DNA of 64,000 nt, from positions 124,001-188,000 of the forward strand of contig NZ_FJUR01000005.1 in assembly GCF_900067135.1 (NCBI RefSeq), in the 5' to 3' direction. The notes beneath the pieces were generated by a model that worked only from the letters and a program-made list of their open reading frames with translations, was not told the DNA's origin and made no database searches. Of this stretch, positions 2,659 through 46,695 are shown piece by piece. The translations under genes and the position numbers were made by a program. Source of the stretch: Rhizobium sp. 9140 (lineage in GTDB: Bacteria > Pseudomonadota > Alphaproteobacteria > Rhizobiales > Rhizobiaceae). Each line of letters begins with the position of its first letter. Within the stretch, counting starts at the first letter, position 1.

Positions 2659-3593
2659 GGCGAGACCTCCACCCGGCGGGCTCCCCAGAACCGGGTGCGA
2701 AACAGCGAGGCAAGGATCAGGGTGACCTGCAGCGGACGGCCGTCGTTCAGGCGATGTTCGATGTAGTGCTCGACAAGCGTCAGAATGGTGGAGAGCACGA
2801 GGTACCAGATGGTGGCGACGATCAGCAGCGGGATGGTCTCGTAGGTGCGCGAATAGATCATCTGCGCGGAATAGAGCAGATCGGGAAGCGCGAGAACGCT
2901 GACCAGCGACGTGAATTTCAGCATGGAGATCGTGTCGTTGCCGATCGGCGGCACGACGATCTTCAAGGCCTGTGGCAGCACGATCCGGCGCAGCGTCTGC
3001 GCTTTGCTCATGCCGAGCGTTGCCGCCGCTTCCGTCTGCCCGGTACTGACTGCCTGGATGCCGGCGCGGATCATTTCCGCCGCATAGGCGCTTTCCGTCA
3101 GCGCCAAACCAAGGACGGCGGCGCTGAACGGCGTGATCAGCGCATTCATGCTGGCCGACCAGAGCTGCGGACCGAAGGGAATGCCGAGCGACACCGTGGG
3201 AATGAGAAGTGCCAGGTTATACCAGAAGATCAGCTGAACCAGCGGCGGCACGCCGCGGAAGAACCAGATCCACACCCAGCTTGCCATCTGGAACACCGGA
3301 TTTTGCGAGAGCCGCATGATGGCGAGAATAACGCCGATCGCCAGACCGAGCACCATGGCGATGAAGGTGAGAAGCAAGGTCCGCCCGAGCCCGGCAAGAA
3401 TCTCCGGGCTGAACATATACCGCGCGACGACATCCCAGTGCAGGTTCTCGTTCGTCACGAGCAGGCGCACGAACAGGAACACGATCACGAGAAGCACGAC
3501 GCCGCCGATCCACCGCGAGGGATGGCGTTCGGGGACCGGCTGGATCGTGTGGATATCCGGACGTTCGGGAAGAGTTTTCAGATTTTGCGCCAT
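2655..3593 (-). CDS. Amino-acid ABC transporter permease
   Basis: 312 residues. A cytoplasmic N-terminus is followed by TM1 at about 29-46, then the HisMQ-type core with RTLLLTF near 71-77 and the EAA coupling loop ([17 protein letters not shown]) at about 188-204. Only one permease gene is present, so a homodimer is likely. It overlaps the ATPase gene by four bases and lies 99 bases downstream of the binding-protein gene. The C-terminus has an extra hydrophobic-basic tail. The substrate is unknown; context suggests a sugar-amine or amino-acid derivative. Confidence 0.92.
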
Positions 3594-4854: not shown

Positions 4855-5961
4855 ATGGCAGAAAAGCGTTCCGACAAGACGACGATCACCGATGTGGCGC
4901 GCCATGCCGGCGTCAGCACTGCAACGGCTGGACGCGTTCTCGGAGGCTATGGCTATACCAGCGCCGAAAACAAGGAAAAGGTCCGCCTCGCCGCCCAAGC
5001 GCTGGGCTACCGCGCAAATCAGTTGGCACGCAGCCTGATCACCGGCAAGACGCGCACGATCGGTGTCGTCGCTGGCGATATCCAGAGCCCGTTCTATGCC
5101 AGTGTTCTGCGCGGCATCGCGGATGTTGCGCGCGCACAAGGCTTTGGCGTGCTTCTGACAAACAGCGACGAACGGCTGGAACGCGAAATCGAGGCCGTTC
5201 AGCTACTCCTCGAAAAGCAAATCGACGGGTTGATCGTCGCTCCCTGCGACACGTCGGGTGCACGGCACTTGCATGACGCTGCGGCCTCCGGATGCCCCAT
5301 CGTCCAGATCGACCGCCGAGTCGCCGGGCTCGCCGCCGATTCGGTAACGCTCGACAACCGGCACGCGGCTCGCGATAGCATCGGCCGGCTGATAGCTGCG
5401 GGGCACCGTCGGATCGGCATGATCGCGGAACTAGAGCGTTTCGAGTTCGGTGACATGGAGGCGTTCGTCGATGGCGTTGTCGCCGGTTCCATTGACCCGG
5501 AAACGCTGTTTCCCAGCTGGCAGCGACTGTTCGGCTATATCGAAGCGCACATCGTGCACGGGATCAGCATCGATCGCAGCCTGATCGGACGGGCCGGAAC
5601 CTACTCTGGTTCGGCCGCACGTGCGGCCACGATGAAGCTGCTGCAGCGCGCCGACCGGCCGACCGCACTGTTCACGGCCGATGGGCTGATGTCGGCCGTT
5701 GCGATGGACGCCATCACATCACTCGACCTCAGCCTTCCTGATGCTCTTTCCCTGATCTGCTTCGACGATCTCGACTGGATGCGATTTCTCAAGCCCGGCA
5801 TCACCGCCATCGCCCAGCCACTGACGGAGATGGGCCAAGCCGCTGCGCGCCTGATCCTGTCGCGCATCGGCGGGGAGGATAGCGCAGAACAGCATCACGT
5901 GCTGACGCACACGCTGGCGCTTCGCGGATCCGTGTCCGCACCTCAGGCCATCGACGCCTGA
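4855..5961 (+). CDS. LacI-family transcriptional regulator
   Basis: 368 residues. The N-terminal helix-turn-helix and hinge are clear (ITDVARHAGVSTATAGRVLGG, about residues 11-31; the hinge Leu-Ala-Arg-Ser follows), then a periplasmic-binding-protein-like sensor domain (RTIGVVAGDIQSPFYASVLRGI). The start is the ATG at 4855 after GGAGAAAGA; the upstream frame extension has no family similarity. It sits between the transporter genes and the kinase and deglycase genes, and both divergent regions carry the same operator, so it is likely the local repressor. Its 3' end overlaps the kinase pseudogene by 19 bases in convergent orientation. Confidence 0.93.
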   Translation: MAEKRSDKTTITDVARHAGVSTATAGRVLGGYGYTSAENKEKVRLAAQALGYRANQLARSLITGKTRTIGVVAGDIQSPFYASVLRGIADVARAQGFGVLLTNSDERLEREIEAVQLLLEKQIDGLIVAPCDTSGARHLHDAAASGCPIVQIDRRVAGLAADSVTLDNRHAARDSIGRLIAAGHRRIGMIAELERFEFGDMEAFVDGVVAGSIDPETLFPSWQRLFGYIEAHIVHGISIDRSLIGRAGTYSGSAARAATMKLLQRADRPTALFTADGLMSAVAMDAITSLDLSLPDALSLICFDDLDWMRFLKPGITAIAQPLTEMGQAAARLILSRIGGEDSAEQHHVLTHTLALRGSVSAPQAIDA

Positions 5962-6850
5962 CGTGCCGGCCGAAGTTCGGGAACATCGCCCGTCAGCGCG
6001 ATAGGCGCCCCATGGCCAACGGCGCCGACGTATCGGCAGGTATCAGCGGCGGCATCGGCGGCCGCCTTCAGCAAGACGTCCGGCGCTTCTCCGGCCACAA
6101 GCCCGTAGAGTGTCCGGGCAATAAAGGTATCGCCCGCCCCGAGCGTATCGACCAGTTCGGCCGGCGACGCCGCGACCTCGAAGAGACCTGCAGGCCCCAG
6201 AAGCAGCGCACCGGCGCCGCCCCGCGTGACCAGCACCCACGTCGCTCCTGGTCCCCGCACCTCCCCGGCCCCCGCACCTTCCCGGCTCCGCCGAGGTCCT
6301 GGGTTCCTCTGAGCTCCTGAGCGATCGCGAGCGCCTCGGCACGGTCGAGATCGCCGGCAGAAACGGATGCCAGAAAACAAAACGGTGCGATGGCCTTGCG
6401 GTGGTCGGCATCCCGGCGCGTGGAGAAGTCGTAGGACAAACGCGTCTGGCCGGCGGCCTGGGGGACATGCGCATCGAGACCGCTGGATTGCCCGATGTGA
6501 ACGGCGGAAAATGTGGAGAGCCAGGCGATATCCGCCGGGTCCGGCGCAAACATCGAGACGCCGAGGTCGGCGCGGACGAAGATGCGGTCGGCATCGCGAT
6601 GGCCGATGATGCAGTAGGCTGTCGGGCCGTCCAGCACTCGCAACCGGGCGAGATCCACCCCTTCCGTCTGCAGTGCCGCTTTGATCACGGCACCCGCTTC
6701 GTCTTTCCCGATTGCGCCGATATAGGCCGACTGCCCGCCGAACCGGCGGATGAAGATGGAGAGGTTCAGGCAGTTTCCACCCGGAAACATCTGGCGCTTC
6801 GAGATATAGCAGTCCACGACGTTGTCGCCCATCGCAGCAATTTTGATCAT
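5943..6850 (-). pseudogene. PfkB-family sugar kinase, frameshifted (fructosamine-kinase FrlD-like)
   Basis: The N-terminal half is read in one frame (MIKIAAMGDNVVDCYISKRQ, a GGNCLNLSIFIRRFGG ribokinase segment, DGPTAYCIIGHRDADRIFV). The C-terminal half is read in another (WVLVTRGGAGALLL, then the PfkB signature LVDTLGAGDTFIA with catalytic Asp). The break is a 17-bp imperfect tandem repeat at 6246-6262 and 6263-6279; removing one unit restores one continuous frame of about 296 codons. The start ATG at 6850 lies 24 bases from the LacI-type operator. The family phosphorylates sugars; the FrlD-like role (phosphorylating a fructosyl-amine for the adjacent SIS protein) is inferred from context. 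Confidence 0.8.
6246..6279. repeat. 17-bp imperfect tandem duplication that breaks the kinase frame
   Basis: Two adjacent units on the plus strand, TCCTGGTCCCCGCACCT and CCCCGGCCCCCGCACCT, agree at 14 of 17 positions. Seventeen is not a multiple of three, and the kinase reading frame changes exactly here. Confidence 0.8.
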
Positions 6851-41250: not shown

Positions 41251-41408
41251 AAATGACTGGCCAGCCTCCGGCCTCGTTGCGCTTCACTCAATTTACCGAG
41301 TCAAATGGGAACCGTGTTAATTGAGGTGCAGATTTTGGTACGGCTGCCAAATCATTACCTTTGATATTGTCGTTCGCTCCAGGATTCATAAATGCTTGAC
41401 TTGCGCAT

Positions 41409-41443
41409 AAACCTGTTGCCAAATTGTGATTGGCAACAGGTTT
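41409..41443. repeat. 14-bp perfect inverted repeat before the serine recombinase gene
   Basis: AAACCTGTTGCCAA - ATTGTGA - TTGGCAACAGGTTT, ending 12 bases before the recombinase ATG. There is no T-run beyond it, so it looks more like a binding or crossover site than a terminator, although it does lie 159 bases past trbI. Confidence 0.75.
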
Positions 41444-41455
41444 ATGTAGCAGAAC

Positions 41456-42947: not shown

Positions 42948-43614
42948 AGTTAACTTTGGCAATCTCCTGGAGCCAACTTGGGAAATGACCCTCGCCCGGT
43001 GGGTAATGCGCTGCGCAAAGTTCCGGAAGATATCCTCGCGGGTATTTTTCCGTCCCGAAATCGTCGCGGTCGCTATCATCTTGCGCTAATAGCACCGATA
43101 CCATTTCACATCCTTCCGTGAAACCGAGCCTTGCGGCCGATCCTCCATCATCTGGCAGCAATCGGCCCGGCCTCGTGTCGTTTCGCTTTCTTCGGCGAGT
43201 TCCTCGTAGGATGACACTAACCGGGATGGCTCCCCTCGTCTTCGCTGGTCTGATCCACGTTTTCCCGGAATGTCTGGTCGCAGCCTTCGCGATCTGTTGG
43301 CAAAGTTTACCACTCGCTGCCAGTGAGAGTTCATCCGTTGCAATTCTGTAGTGGCGTGGTAGAGCCGCAAGCGCTATAAGCCCTCTCGAGGTAGTACGCG
43401 CTATCTCGCGGGCTTAGTAACCCGAGCATGTCGGTTTGGCGTCCGCCGTTAGGACGTCGAATTCCTCGACCTATGGTCGGGGAGCCATGGACTCATGTCC
43501 AGGTTCCTCGGAACTAAAGGTCCATGGGCCGGCACATGCTCGGTTACTAACTCCCCGATCGCCAGGGGTCAGGAACAATGCGGGGGCGTACCGCGCATTC
43601 GTTTGGGAGGAGCC
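42948..43614. other. Intergenic region with a dense hairpin block
   Basis: No gene I can support between the methyltransferase and traM. A minus-strand frame at 43086-43370 exists but has no recognisable features. The second half holds the nested inverted repeats listed at 43414-43550. Confidence 0.5.
43414..43550. repeat. Nested inverted repeats, possible structured RNA or cruciform upstream of traM
   Basis: A long outer stem pairs 43414-43434 (TTAGTAACCCGAGCATGTCGG) with 43529-43550 (ends CATGCTCGGTTACTAA) with two small bulges. Inside are CGTCC/GGACG (43440-43444 with 43452-43456), GTCGA/TCGAC (43456-43460 with 43466-43470) competing with CGACC/GGTCG (43467-43471 with 43475-43479), CCATGGAC/GTCCATGG (43485-43492 with 43520-43527), and GTTCC/GGAAC (43503-43507 with 43510-43514). 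Confidence 0.6.
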
Positions 43615-43914
43615 ATGTCCAAAGAGGAAAATGGCACGATTGAAGACGTAGACCTTCGTCCACTCGTCGGGTTGCTGGCAGGTGTACCTGAACGGATAAT
43701 AGAGGGACTAACCGTCGAAGCGATCAAAAAGCACCGTGATCTGGTGGAAAAGGCTGAGATACTGTTTCAGAACTTACCGACTAACGCGCAAGGCGGCATC
43801 GACGGGAATGACGCGGCTCAGATTGACTATTTCGCAGCGGCCATCGAAATGCACGCCCAGATGTCCGCTCTGACGACACTCTTGAAGATCCTCGGTCGGA
43901 CACCGAAAGTCTGA
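43615..43914 (+). CDS. traM: TraM, anti-activator of TraR
   Basis: 99 residues, matching TraM in length and pattern: DVDLRPLVGLLAGVPERIIEGL, TVEAIKKHRDLVEKAEILF and the C-terminal helix FAAAIEMHAQMSALTTLLKILG. TraM binds TraR and blocks DNA binding, setting the quorum threshold for conjugation. GGGAGGAG lies upstream. Convergent with traR, their ends 10 bases apart. Confidence 0.9.
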   Translation: MSKEENGTIEDVDLRPLVGLLAGVPERIIEGLTVEAIKKHRDLVEKAEILFQNLPTNAQGGIDGNDAAQIDYFAAAIEMHAQMSALTTLLKILGRTPKV

Positions 43915-45525: not shown

Positions 45526-46695
45526 TCACGTGTTGAAAGACATCACGAGCGGCTTGCCGAACAAGCGAGCCCAAGCCTCAGCGCTGGCGCGTTGGATTGA
45601 GACGATACTTGTCCCCTTGGTCCACCATCCGTTTCCGACCGCGACTATGAGGTCGGGATCGTGCAACATCGACTGGAGAACGGGCCAAACGATCAGCTGC
45701 TCGTAGCAAATGAGCGGTGCAACCCGATATCCGAGCACCTCGGCCACCGGATTTGCGAAGAAATGTGCCCGGGCGCCGCTGCCTTTGCCGATCAGCGGAA
45801 GCCACGGCTGCCACATCGAGCCTGGGACCGGCATTCGCTCACGATAGAGAATTTCGCTGCTCTCGGCCGAGATCCGTACGAGGATATTGTCGTATCCTTC
45901 GGCGTTGATCATCGCTGCGCCTGCGACGACTGTAAGGCCGGTTCCCGATAGCTGCTGGCGCCACAAACGATCCACCGAGGATGTCCATAAGCCTAGTGCG
46001 CTCTCGGGCAACACCACGATGGAACGGCCGGAAACGTGTTGATCGAAGACTGTCGCGGCGAGATCACGATGGCGAGAAAGACTTCCATCCCGGCCGAGAC
46101 TGCTACCGAGCTGCAGGTCGACTGCTTGCCAGCTTTTGGGCCAATCTTCCCGGTCTGTCGCCAATGCAGCCGGTCCAAGCCATAGGCCTGCGAAGGCGAA
46201 GGCCGCAGCTGGCCAGCATCGTGTCGACATAATCACGAGGCCGGCCGCCATTGACACAAGCCCGCCCCAGCCCCACCCGGGGAACAGGATGCCTGCGGCC
46301 GTGATCGGATGGGCCCATCCGACGATGCCGAAAGGGGGCACAGCCATCAGCAATATGGCCGCGAAGTACCGTAGGGCCCTCCGCCACCCAGCGTGTGGCG
46401 TCCACACGACTGTATGGACAAACACGAACCCGGTGGAAGCGGCAATCCAAAGGATCAAACCCGGCCAGAGATCCGACTGGTAGAATGCGGCGACGCCCTG
46501 TGGCAGTCCGCGCGATGCGGCGAGGAAGTAGGCTGTGGATACAGCTGCCGCGCAATGCCGTCTTGGCGCCAATGACCAGATTAGCGGAAAGGCCGCTGAC
46601 AAAGGAAGTGCCGAGGCCTGGCCGCTCCAGGCGATGAAACCGACAGCTCCTGACGCAACGATGAGGGCGAGAGCGAGCTGGCATTCATGGCGCAA
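45526..46695 (-). CDS. traB: TraB, conjugal transfer protein with nitrilase/Lnt-like fold
   Basis: 389 residues. N-terminal half with several membrane segments (WPGLILWIAASTGFVFVHTVVW, ALRYFAAILLMAVPPFGIVGW). C-terminal half has a carbon-nitrogen-hydrolase fold: VVLPESALGLW (Glu region), ILYRERMPVPGSMWQPWLP, and APLICYEQLIVWP with the Cys. In Ti plasmids TraB raises transfer efficiency. Overlaps traF by 11 bases. Confidence 0.9.
   Translation of the reverse strand: MRHECQLALALIVASGAVGFIAWSGQASALPLSAAFPLIWSLAPRRHCAAAVSTAYFLAASRGLPQGVAAFYQSDLWPGLILWIAASTGFVFVHTVVWTPHAGWRRALRYFAAILLMAVPPFGIVGWAHPITAAGILFPGWGWGGLVSMAAGLVIMSTRCWPAAAFAFAGLWLGPAALATDREDWPKSWQAVDLQLGSSLGRDGSLSRHRDLAATVFDQHVSGRSIVVLPESALGLWTSSVDRLWRQQLSGTGLTVVAGAAMINAEGYDNILVRISAESSEILYRERMPVPGSMWQPWLPLIGKGSGARAHFFANPVAEVLGYRVAPLICYEQLIVWPVLQSMLHDPDLIVAVGNGWWTKGTSIVSIQRASAEAWARLFGKPLVMSFNT

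Follow-up and report, generated by a model that had tools for sequence, protein, structure and literature searches.

A structured element upstream of traM

Upstream of the traM gene of the window (the whole stretch of 64,000 nucleotides from Rhizobium sp. 9140 that was analysed) lie trbG, trbI and the genes for a resolvase-type recombinase and a PCMT-like methyltransferase, and traM is followed by traR, traH, traB and traA (relaxase) on the opposite strand. A block of nested hairpins, 137 bases long, had been described at positions 43414-43550, 65 bases before traM. The block is real, with its arms and inner repeats present, but it corresponded to a part of a larger RNA element of approximately 212 nt located on the + strand at 43388-43599 (Table 1). 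The 5' boundary was the hairpin at 43388 and the 3' boundary the hairpin ending at 43599, 15 nt before the traM ATG (43615). The preliminary description was thus right in kind and underestimated the size of the element. The segment 43404-43560 folded as + strand RNA at -84.4 kcal/mol (z -7.4) and as - strand RNA at -70.4 kcal/mol (z -5.1), and for both strands none of 200 dinucleotide shuffles was as low. No significant match to the hairpin block was observed in Rfam 15, the only one at E up to 10 being a partial match of 16 bases (E 6.8). Elsewhere in the window, the Rfam Atu_Ti1 sRNA (RF02506) was visible at 46157-46248 (+), antisense within traB, with 74.1 bits for a cut-off of 55. The palindrome at 41406-41446, between trbI and the recombinase gene, gave a weak match to a microRNA model on both strands; this match is due to chance, the palindrome probably being a hairpin or a terminator.

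A promoter-like site was located just 5' of the first hairpin, hp1. It was recognized from the base bias of 78 relatives upstream of hp1, with T/A at -35, G at -34 (53/78) and A at -31 (40), followed by T at -13 (47), A at -12 (44) and A/T at -11 (44 and 23, respectively), and, if taken as a site of the sigma-70 type, would have a 17-base spacing. This location supports the view that the RNA would begin the mRNA, and the putative transcript start is expected at approximately 43388, at hp1. Position and promoter-like site together argue that the conserved, structured RNA is a sense-strand 5' leader. Beyond the last hairpin, hp3, the window continues with TCGTTTGG.

Table 1. Predicted structure of the leader and neighbouring features (window positions; paired cells and pairs changing on both sides were counted among the aligned relatives).
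Feature	Position	Strand	Support
Promoter-like site: weak -35-like, 17 bp, -10-like TATAAG	43352-43357 and 43375-43380	+	base bias in 78 relatives
hp1, first hairpin, GAGGTAG-TACGCG-CTATCTC	43388..43407	+	stem 90.2% paired, 7/7 pairs change both sides
hp1-hp3 loop contact	CGC of hp1 loop with GCG of hp3 loop	+	two invariant pairs, one covarying
P2 hairpin, CGGG-CTTAGTAA-CCCG	43409..43424	+	100% paired; compensatory changes in 2/4 pairs, few sequences each
PK1, P2 loop TTAGTAA with TTACTAA	43414-43420 with 43544-43550	+	99.1% paired, 4/6 pairs change both sides
P4, AGCATGT with P8 loop ACATGCT	43425-43431 with 43534-43540	+	86.6% paired, 6/6 pairs change both sides
P3, CGGT with GCCG	43432-43435 with 43445-43448	+	86.2% paired, 4/5 pairs change both sides
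P3 H-type pseudoknot, GGCGTC with GACGTC	43438-43443 with 43453-43458	+	87.6% paired, 5/6 change both sides
P5 hairpin, GACC-TAT-GGTC, excludes PK2	43468..43478	+	95.8% paired, mostly invariant, 1/4 pairs changes both sides
PK2, GGTCGGGGAG with CTCCCCGATC	43475-43484 with 43551-43560	+	99.1% paired, 4/9 pairs change both sides
P6	43485-43492 with 43520-43527	+	98.6% paired, 5/8 pairs change both sides
Conserved internal loop CATGTCCAGG / CTAAAGG between P6 and P7	within 43485..43527	+	
P7	43503-43514	+	weak, 69.8% paired
P8 hairpin, CCG with CGG, P4 3' strand in loop	43529-43531 with 43541-43543	+	95.8% paired, 3/4 change both sides
hp3, last hairpin, AATGCGG-GGGCGTA-CCGCGCATT	43577..43599	+	95.3% paired, 3/5 pairs change both sides
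Shine-Dalgarno-like GGGAGGAG	43605..43612	+	sequence
traM, antiactivator of TraR, 99 codons plus stop	43615..43914	+	Pfam Prok-TraM, E 1.5e-24

The 78 distinct sequences of the closest group of relatives (tier 1, defined below) were aligned blind to structure (alignment A7), and the truncated L072, a reverse-strand match in L024 and identical cores were dropped before the counts. In a first set of 57 pairs, 92.0% of the cells were paired as compared to 84.6% after shuffling and at most 45.9% after sliding; 37/57 pairs changed on both sides, the covariation was 0.290 versus 0.153, and none of 500 shuffles was as high in any of the five measures. In a second set (PK2, P4 and P6), which overlaps the first by eight P6 pairs, 95.9% of the cells were paired (82.0% shuffled, at most 55.6% slid), 15/23 pairs changed on both sides, and the covariation of 0.398 versus 0.144 was again reached by none of 500 shuffles; the shuffle controls of both sets ignore relatedness and the slid controls allow for it in part. 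Over the 72 distinct pairs, 475 cells were G-U and 127 A-C, and this excess of G-U implies that the folded molecule is the + strand RNA, the sense strand of the downstream gene. Compensatory changes are thus present in the alignment in every tested helix of these close relatives, pseudoknots included. A regulatory RNA upstream of traM had been suggested beforehand, a lack of compensatory changes in homologues being named as the result that would speak against it; such changes turned out to be abundant, and the G-U excess assigns the function to the + strand.

The predicted fold shown by this comparison is a + strand RNA of approximately 212 nt with a contact between hp1 and hp3, loops of P2 and P8 which pair with each other's 3' flanks (PK1 and P4), an H-type pseudoknot (P3) and a long pseudoknot helix (PK2). 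The covarying pair of the hp1-hp3 contact was C-G in 65 sequences, U-A in 10 and U-G in 2, and was broken in none of 77. A potential fourth pair (A-U 31, G-U 2, other 44 of 77) was not conserved, and the contact was therefore limited to three base pairs. All four Watson-Crick combinations occurred at alignment column 45/193 of PK1 (A-U 32, G-C 22, C-G 18, U-A 4) and at column 60/178 of P4 (U-A 23, G-C 20, A-U 17, C-G 9, with one G-U); one pair of PK2 was G-U in 68/77.

Instead of PK1 and P4, an outer stem of 21–22 bases had been proposed. The arms exist in the window, at 43414-43431 and 43534-43550, with 18 versus 17 bases, one bulged C and a possible CGG/CCG further in, and a continuous stem was seen in the minimum-energy fold. 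The hairpins P2 and P8 show compensatory changes, and their arms compete with the continuous stem; in the family, the same strands therefore form two distinct pairings of a loop with a strand, PK1 and P4. The inner repeats CCATGGAC/GTCCATGG and CGACC/GGTCG were present in the window and kept in relatives. The proposal of mutually exclusive repeats was correct insofar as such helices exist; the conserved pair is GACC/GGTC (P5) versus GGTCGGGGAG/CTCCCCGATC (PK2), and the GTCGA/TCGAC alternative was not conserved in the alignment of relatives.

Relatives of the leader and the genes behind them

A blastn search with 257 bases found 309 places in 244 of 72,556 plasmid records, 148 of these records being typed conjugative, and the conserved region reached past the block first reported at each side. 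The covariance model R1 (17 sequences, 233 positions) matched, at E up to 0.001, 38/289 genomes of the class, 39/297 of the order and 8/150 of the phylum. The R1 scores split into two groups. Tier 1 consisted of full-length matches of 134 to 238 bits which resemble the window. Tier 2, which also extended to chromosomes and viral contigs, scored mostly between 30 and 116 bits and was spread over many families of the class; one genome had at least seven copies, the numbers of copies per genome being lower bounds as at most 7 candidates were scored per genome (14 in one search). A pattern scan added 29 viral contigs and at least 119 genome stretches. The 80 stretches listed were alphaproteobacterial by title, except L114 and L148 (MAGs named only Proteobacteria) and L130 (Acidobacteriaceae). 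R1 matched 100 of 100 pattern-scan loci, partly by construction since the pattern is a part of the element; for the genome stretches, this search took in L111-L181 and left out L182-L190.

Several individual loci stood out. The leader was present in 29 IMG/VR viral contigs (L082-L110), all matched by R1. The MAG labelled Acidobacteriaceae showed a tier-1 match of 135.6 bits at 3096-3334 (-) of L130, for which transfer or mis-binning are both possible. Plasmid pR76 (L021) carried two leader copies approximately 1 kb apart (4990-5219 and 6007-6241), one before a helix-turn-helix gene and one before the gene of an AraC-type regulator. In a Rickettsiales MAG (L127 5934-6155 and 7020-7236, and L177), several copies among the matches listed were followed by prepilin-like genes that begin almost identically, which would fit a joint duplication of leader and gene.

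The gene behind the leader varied. In the Ti plasmid of Agrobacterium fabrum C58, the element at 150012-150145 was followed by traM at 150171, and traM also stood behind the element in pSinA and in a Sinorhizobium meliloti plasmid. In Ketogulonicigenium pYP1, the gene behind it encoded a DUF2285 protein, and in p42d, pAMI8 and pR76 a helix-turn-helix regulator. In plasmids of Bradyrhizobium and Rhodopseudomonas, the element preceded genes of hypothetical proteins, with luxI-type genes at some distance further on. A reading of the p42d copy as the leader of RctA was rejected, the ORF behind it being an HTH_3 protein. Eleven of 14 copies in 13 annotated plasmid stretches had an annotated gene on the same strand 11–21 bases past the aligned element, the exceptions being L011, L013 and L016. 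A Pfam scan of 83 tier-1 ORFs counted 22 RovC_DNA-bd (PF10074), 8 Prok-TraM and 6 HTH_3 proteins; these counts, as those of tier 2, are rough, as the longest ORF was chosen and some true downstream genes were missed (e.g., L010), and a later scan took all candidate ORFs. The annotated DUF2285 protein of pYP1 matched PF10074, the family to which we take QseM to belong. With iterative profiles, 38 of the 78 distinct tier-1 loci preceded an antiactivator gene, 23 being QseM/DUF2285-like and 15 TraM-like. The latter is an upper figure, since some members scored 17.6 and 18.1 for a Pfam cut-off of 22.2 and two gave no Pfam match when re-scanned. The two antiactivator families are dissimilar to each other. 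The same profiles found neither family behind any of 90 tier-2 loci, and the tier-2 downstream ORFs were mixed, without obvious common function; therefore no metabolite is suggested as the ligand.

TraM binds TraR and blocks transfer, and strains without TraM transfer the Ti plasmid constitutively (PMC5924552). QseM was described as a quorum-sensing antiactivator of symbiosis islands (PMC5882170). No description of the leader was found in the literature searched, the early traM papers and a 2008 study of rctA regulation lying outside its scope, and a word search for traM in the main text of a survey of Agrobacterium leaders (PMC3738593) gave no occurrence.

Relation to sRNA-Xcc1

The Rfam family sRNA-Xcc1 (RF02221) is a model of 87 positions for an RNA borne by integrons, transposons and plasmids. 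In a full-length alignment of L029, its outer stem corresponded to PK2, followed by P6, P7 and P8 in the order of the leader, and the internal loop was conserved. At E up to 1, RF02221 was found in 2 of 18 scanned loci, both of tier 2, over positions 1-87 on the same strand with 34.4 and 31.7 bits, and a separate genome search matched it to one tier-1 element with 32.5 bits (E 0.0016), below the cut-off. None of 20 tier-1 and tier-2 loci reached the gathering cut-off of 53 bits, and the window's copy showed no match at E up to 10; being below the cut-off, it was not assigned to RF02221. Of 200 genomes of the phylum, 46 contained the family itself, 30 of them with matches over the cut-off, as compared to none of 14 control genomes. 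Some genomes held several copies, and G323 and G398, which belong to the same order as the window, had separate RF02221 matches over the cut-off. Conversely, among 30 sRNA-Xcc1 loci R1 matched only two over the full length (E 2.5e-6 and 2.9e-4). Both models matched one locus on contig 8 of G651, R1 with 20.1 bits and RF02221 with 47.9 bits.

Upstream of the RF02221 match, 27 of 30 sRNA-Xcc1 loci carried a hairpin resembling P2 of the leader, the loop of which complements the strand that follows P8, versus 238 of 870 mismatched combinations, a count which keeps all loci, the loosest finds (L238 and L253) being doubtful. The P2 hairpin, PK1 and P4 lay approximately 75–130 nt upstream. A structure-blind alignment of 25 sRNA-Xcc1 loci (A8) supported P2, PK1, P4, PK2 and P8, with the 5 of 30 loci in which P2 was absent or doubtful left out, which favours the P2 counts. 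In this alignment, 81.2% of the cells were paired as compared to 69.2% shuffled and at most 54.8% slid, 31/44 pairs changed on both sides, and none of 500 shuffles was as high. PK2 and P8 covaried in both branches, whereas P6 and P7 (52.9 and 65.0% paired, respectively) were poorly aligned in the sRNA-Xcc1 set.

The sRNA-Xcc1 fragment appears to correspond to the 3' half of the same architecture; Rfam RF02221 models this half only, without the 5' domain. Our reading is that the leader and sRNA-Xcc1 represent one architecture with separate branches. The branches differ in that a hairpin and a T-run stand in place of the tier-1 P3 pseudoknot in the sRNA-Xcc1 branch. In the 30 loci (L230-L259), a conserved hairpin CCGCA/UGCGG with a loop of the CCCGUCAG type was located approximately 45–80 nt upstream of the RF02221 match, commonly with a T-run after it, and TTTTT occurred within the 110 upstream bases in 24/30. 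The arrangement resembles a terminator located within the sRNA-Xcc1 leader. An HDV-like ribozyme was considered, since the 5' strand of PK2 is where sRNA-Xcc1 starts, and was rejected; the strand order of the sRNA-Xcc1/PK2 architecture presumably differs from the HDV topology. In Xanthomonas, sRNA-Xcc1 was mapped as an RNA of 88 nt with a Northern signal of approximately 100 nt (PMC2996969), and it is located upstream of symE in integron cassettes (PMC12444791). In Xylella, transcription was seen for seven homologues (PMC12189769).

Possible switching and the alternative readings

The clearest traces of alternative pairing were observed in the sRNA-Xcc1 branch. The core strand matched its own downstream side with a mean longest match of 6.77 versus 5.33 (sd 0.18) over the 30 loci, and its own upstream side with 7.90 versus 6.03, and in both cases none of 2000 permutations was as high. 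The downstream match reached at least 7 in 18/30 loci. In L239, L241, L251 and L257, both 5' strands recurred on either side of the Shine-Dalgarno sequence, as predicted by a strand-exchange switch at the ribosome-binding site. These comparisons support the view that, in the sRNA-Xcc1 branch, the P8 loop and the following strand would complement both the 5' domain and the region around the downstream ribosome-binding site.

In tier 2, a terminator-like hairpin was found behind PK2 in 36 of 81 loci as compared to 12.75 expected, often sharing the last PK2 bases. The tier-2 PK2 strand also matched the downstream region (5/1000 permutations), while the core strand did not (136/1000). Where ACTCCC was changed to ACACCC, GGGAG was present downstream in 0/7 loci versus 39/69 of the others and GGGTG in 3/7 versus 4/69, one of the seven (L051) probably being a mis-assigned site. 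An overlap of the PK2 end with a terminator-like hairpin is supported as a predicted feature of a part of the loci of this diverged alphaproteobacterial tier. In tier 1, to which the window belongs, neither the PK2 strand (344/1000 permutations) nor the core strand (842/1000) matched the downstream region, and a partner at the ribosome-binding site is unsupported. In these pairing and terminator tests, loci without a recognizable PK2 strand were left out. A loose terminator test flagged 14 of 76 tier-1 loci, the window's hp3 included, versus 4.05 expected, and attenuation at hp3 is possible.

Switching is thus supported by base pairing in the sRNA-Xcc1 branch, and for traM it is only inferred from the family, as the tier-1 pairing tests were negative. 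We propose the following model. With the 5' domain folded, the core strand would be held and the ribosome-binding site, or transcription, would be free; in the alternative fold, either would be closed. For the window, the model predicts CTCCCC (43551-43556) as the competing strand, engaged in PK2 or with the traM Shine-Dalgarno sequence, to which the PK2 3' strand CTCCCCGATC could alternatively pair. The leader would thereby set the amount of TraM per mRNA. Candidate triggers are a small molecule, a protein, Hfq with an sRNA, or the state of the ribosome. Mutation of hfq in A. tumefaciens lowers TraM protein and raises TraG, which fits a post-transcriptional control of traM, although the leader itself was not linked to it in that report (PMC4201532).

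A mobile repeat (MITE or IS end) or a chance palindrome would account for an inverted repeat of approximately 18 bp around 100 nt and for the presence of the element on many replicons. That the block does not look like an IS end had been noted beforehand, and the genome bears this out: its 5.43 Mb contained two copies, each preceding a TraM-like gene, with all other DNA matches at E >1. The second, also of tier 1, was located on contig 3 of the same genome (G000; L002/L023) at 69245-69474 on the - strand. With the compensatory changes in inner helices and pseudoknots and the z of -7.4, this explanation is for practical purposes refuted by the covariation and its probability negligible. A single-stranded DNA promoter or priming site of the Frpo/ssi type, folding in the transferred strand so that traM is expressed soon after entry into the recipient, is also very improbable. 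Promoters of this type are known (PMC11541004), and those of plasmid leading regions are likewise folded elements before genes of conjugative plasmids; the leader is heavily structured, is found on conjugative plasmids and precedes a gene useful in a new host. However, its orientation relative to the relaxase gene varies, being the same in four stretches (L018, L020, L014 and L021) and opposite in two (the window and L009) of six, a count in which the relaxase gene is a proxy and a constant oriT-traA order is assumed. The excess of wobble pairs lies on the coding-sense strand, whereas the transferred strand, when transcribed, would be the template. Furthermore, relatives occur in chromosomes and viral contigs. 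For Frpo/ssi promoters, -35 and -10 boxes would be expected inside the hairpin; the promoter-like site recognized here lies outside, upstream of hp1.

Two readings as an RNA deserve more weight. The element could be the gene of a trans-acting small RNA, as sRNA-Xcc1 was described, standing before ORFs by chance, whereas we read the window's element as a leader. The mapped 88-nt RNA and its Northern signal (PMC2996969), the transcription of the Xylella homologues (PMC12189769) and the common architecture favour it. We nevertheless hold it to be rather unlikely given the position of most annotated plasmid copies 11–21 bases before a gene on the same strand, the antiactivator genes behind 38/78 tier-1 loci and the complementarity of the sRNA-Xcc1 core to its own downstream side beyond permutation; moreover, 62/76 tier-1 copies showed no terminator-like end even in the loose test. 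A static structured leader, with a role in protecting the mRNA or in shielding translation from upstream surroundings that differ among mobile genes, would agree with the great diversity of the downstream genes and with the lack of covariation with the ribosome-binding site in tier 1. It seems a somewhat better candidate, still on the unlikely side, as mutually exclusive helices are conserved across tiers and as both the downstream pairing of sRNA-Xcc1 and the terminator-like overlap of tier 2 fit a switch better.

On balance, the element is probably a cis-acting regulatory RNA leader with a switch-like behaviour. It resembles translational riboswitches and pseudoknotted cis-regulatory leaders in its compact core with multiple pseudoknots and its conserved internal loop, and, in a part of the family, in a putative alternative pairing that involves a terminator or the surroundings of the ribosome-binding site. 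It differs from riboswitches in that the downstream genes point to no common metabolite, and none of the Rfam riboswitch families was matched in the scans of the window and of the scanned loci. A bolder proposal, which we regard as tentative and somewhat doubtful, is that of an ancient riboswitch class of mobile DNA with one common ligand, present on alphaproteobacterial plasmids and chromosomes as well as on viral contigs, and represented in other Pseudomonadota by sRNA-Xcc1, which class would decide on the translation of TraM or QseM and hence on plasmid transfer. The sRNA-Xcc1 RNA would in that case be a stable fragment of a leader and not a dedicated trans-acting sRNA.

The leader before conjugation antagonists and other mobile-DNA genes of proteobacteria looks like an unrecognized genetic switch. 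The same fold would explain the orphan Rfam entry sRNA-Xcc1 as a part of a larger leader, and the covariance model and the helices described here are available for finding the trigger. A common intricate leader before two dissimilar families of antiactivators points to a shared post-transcriptional input.
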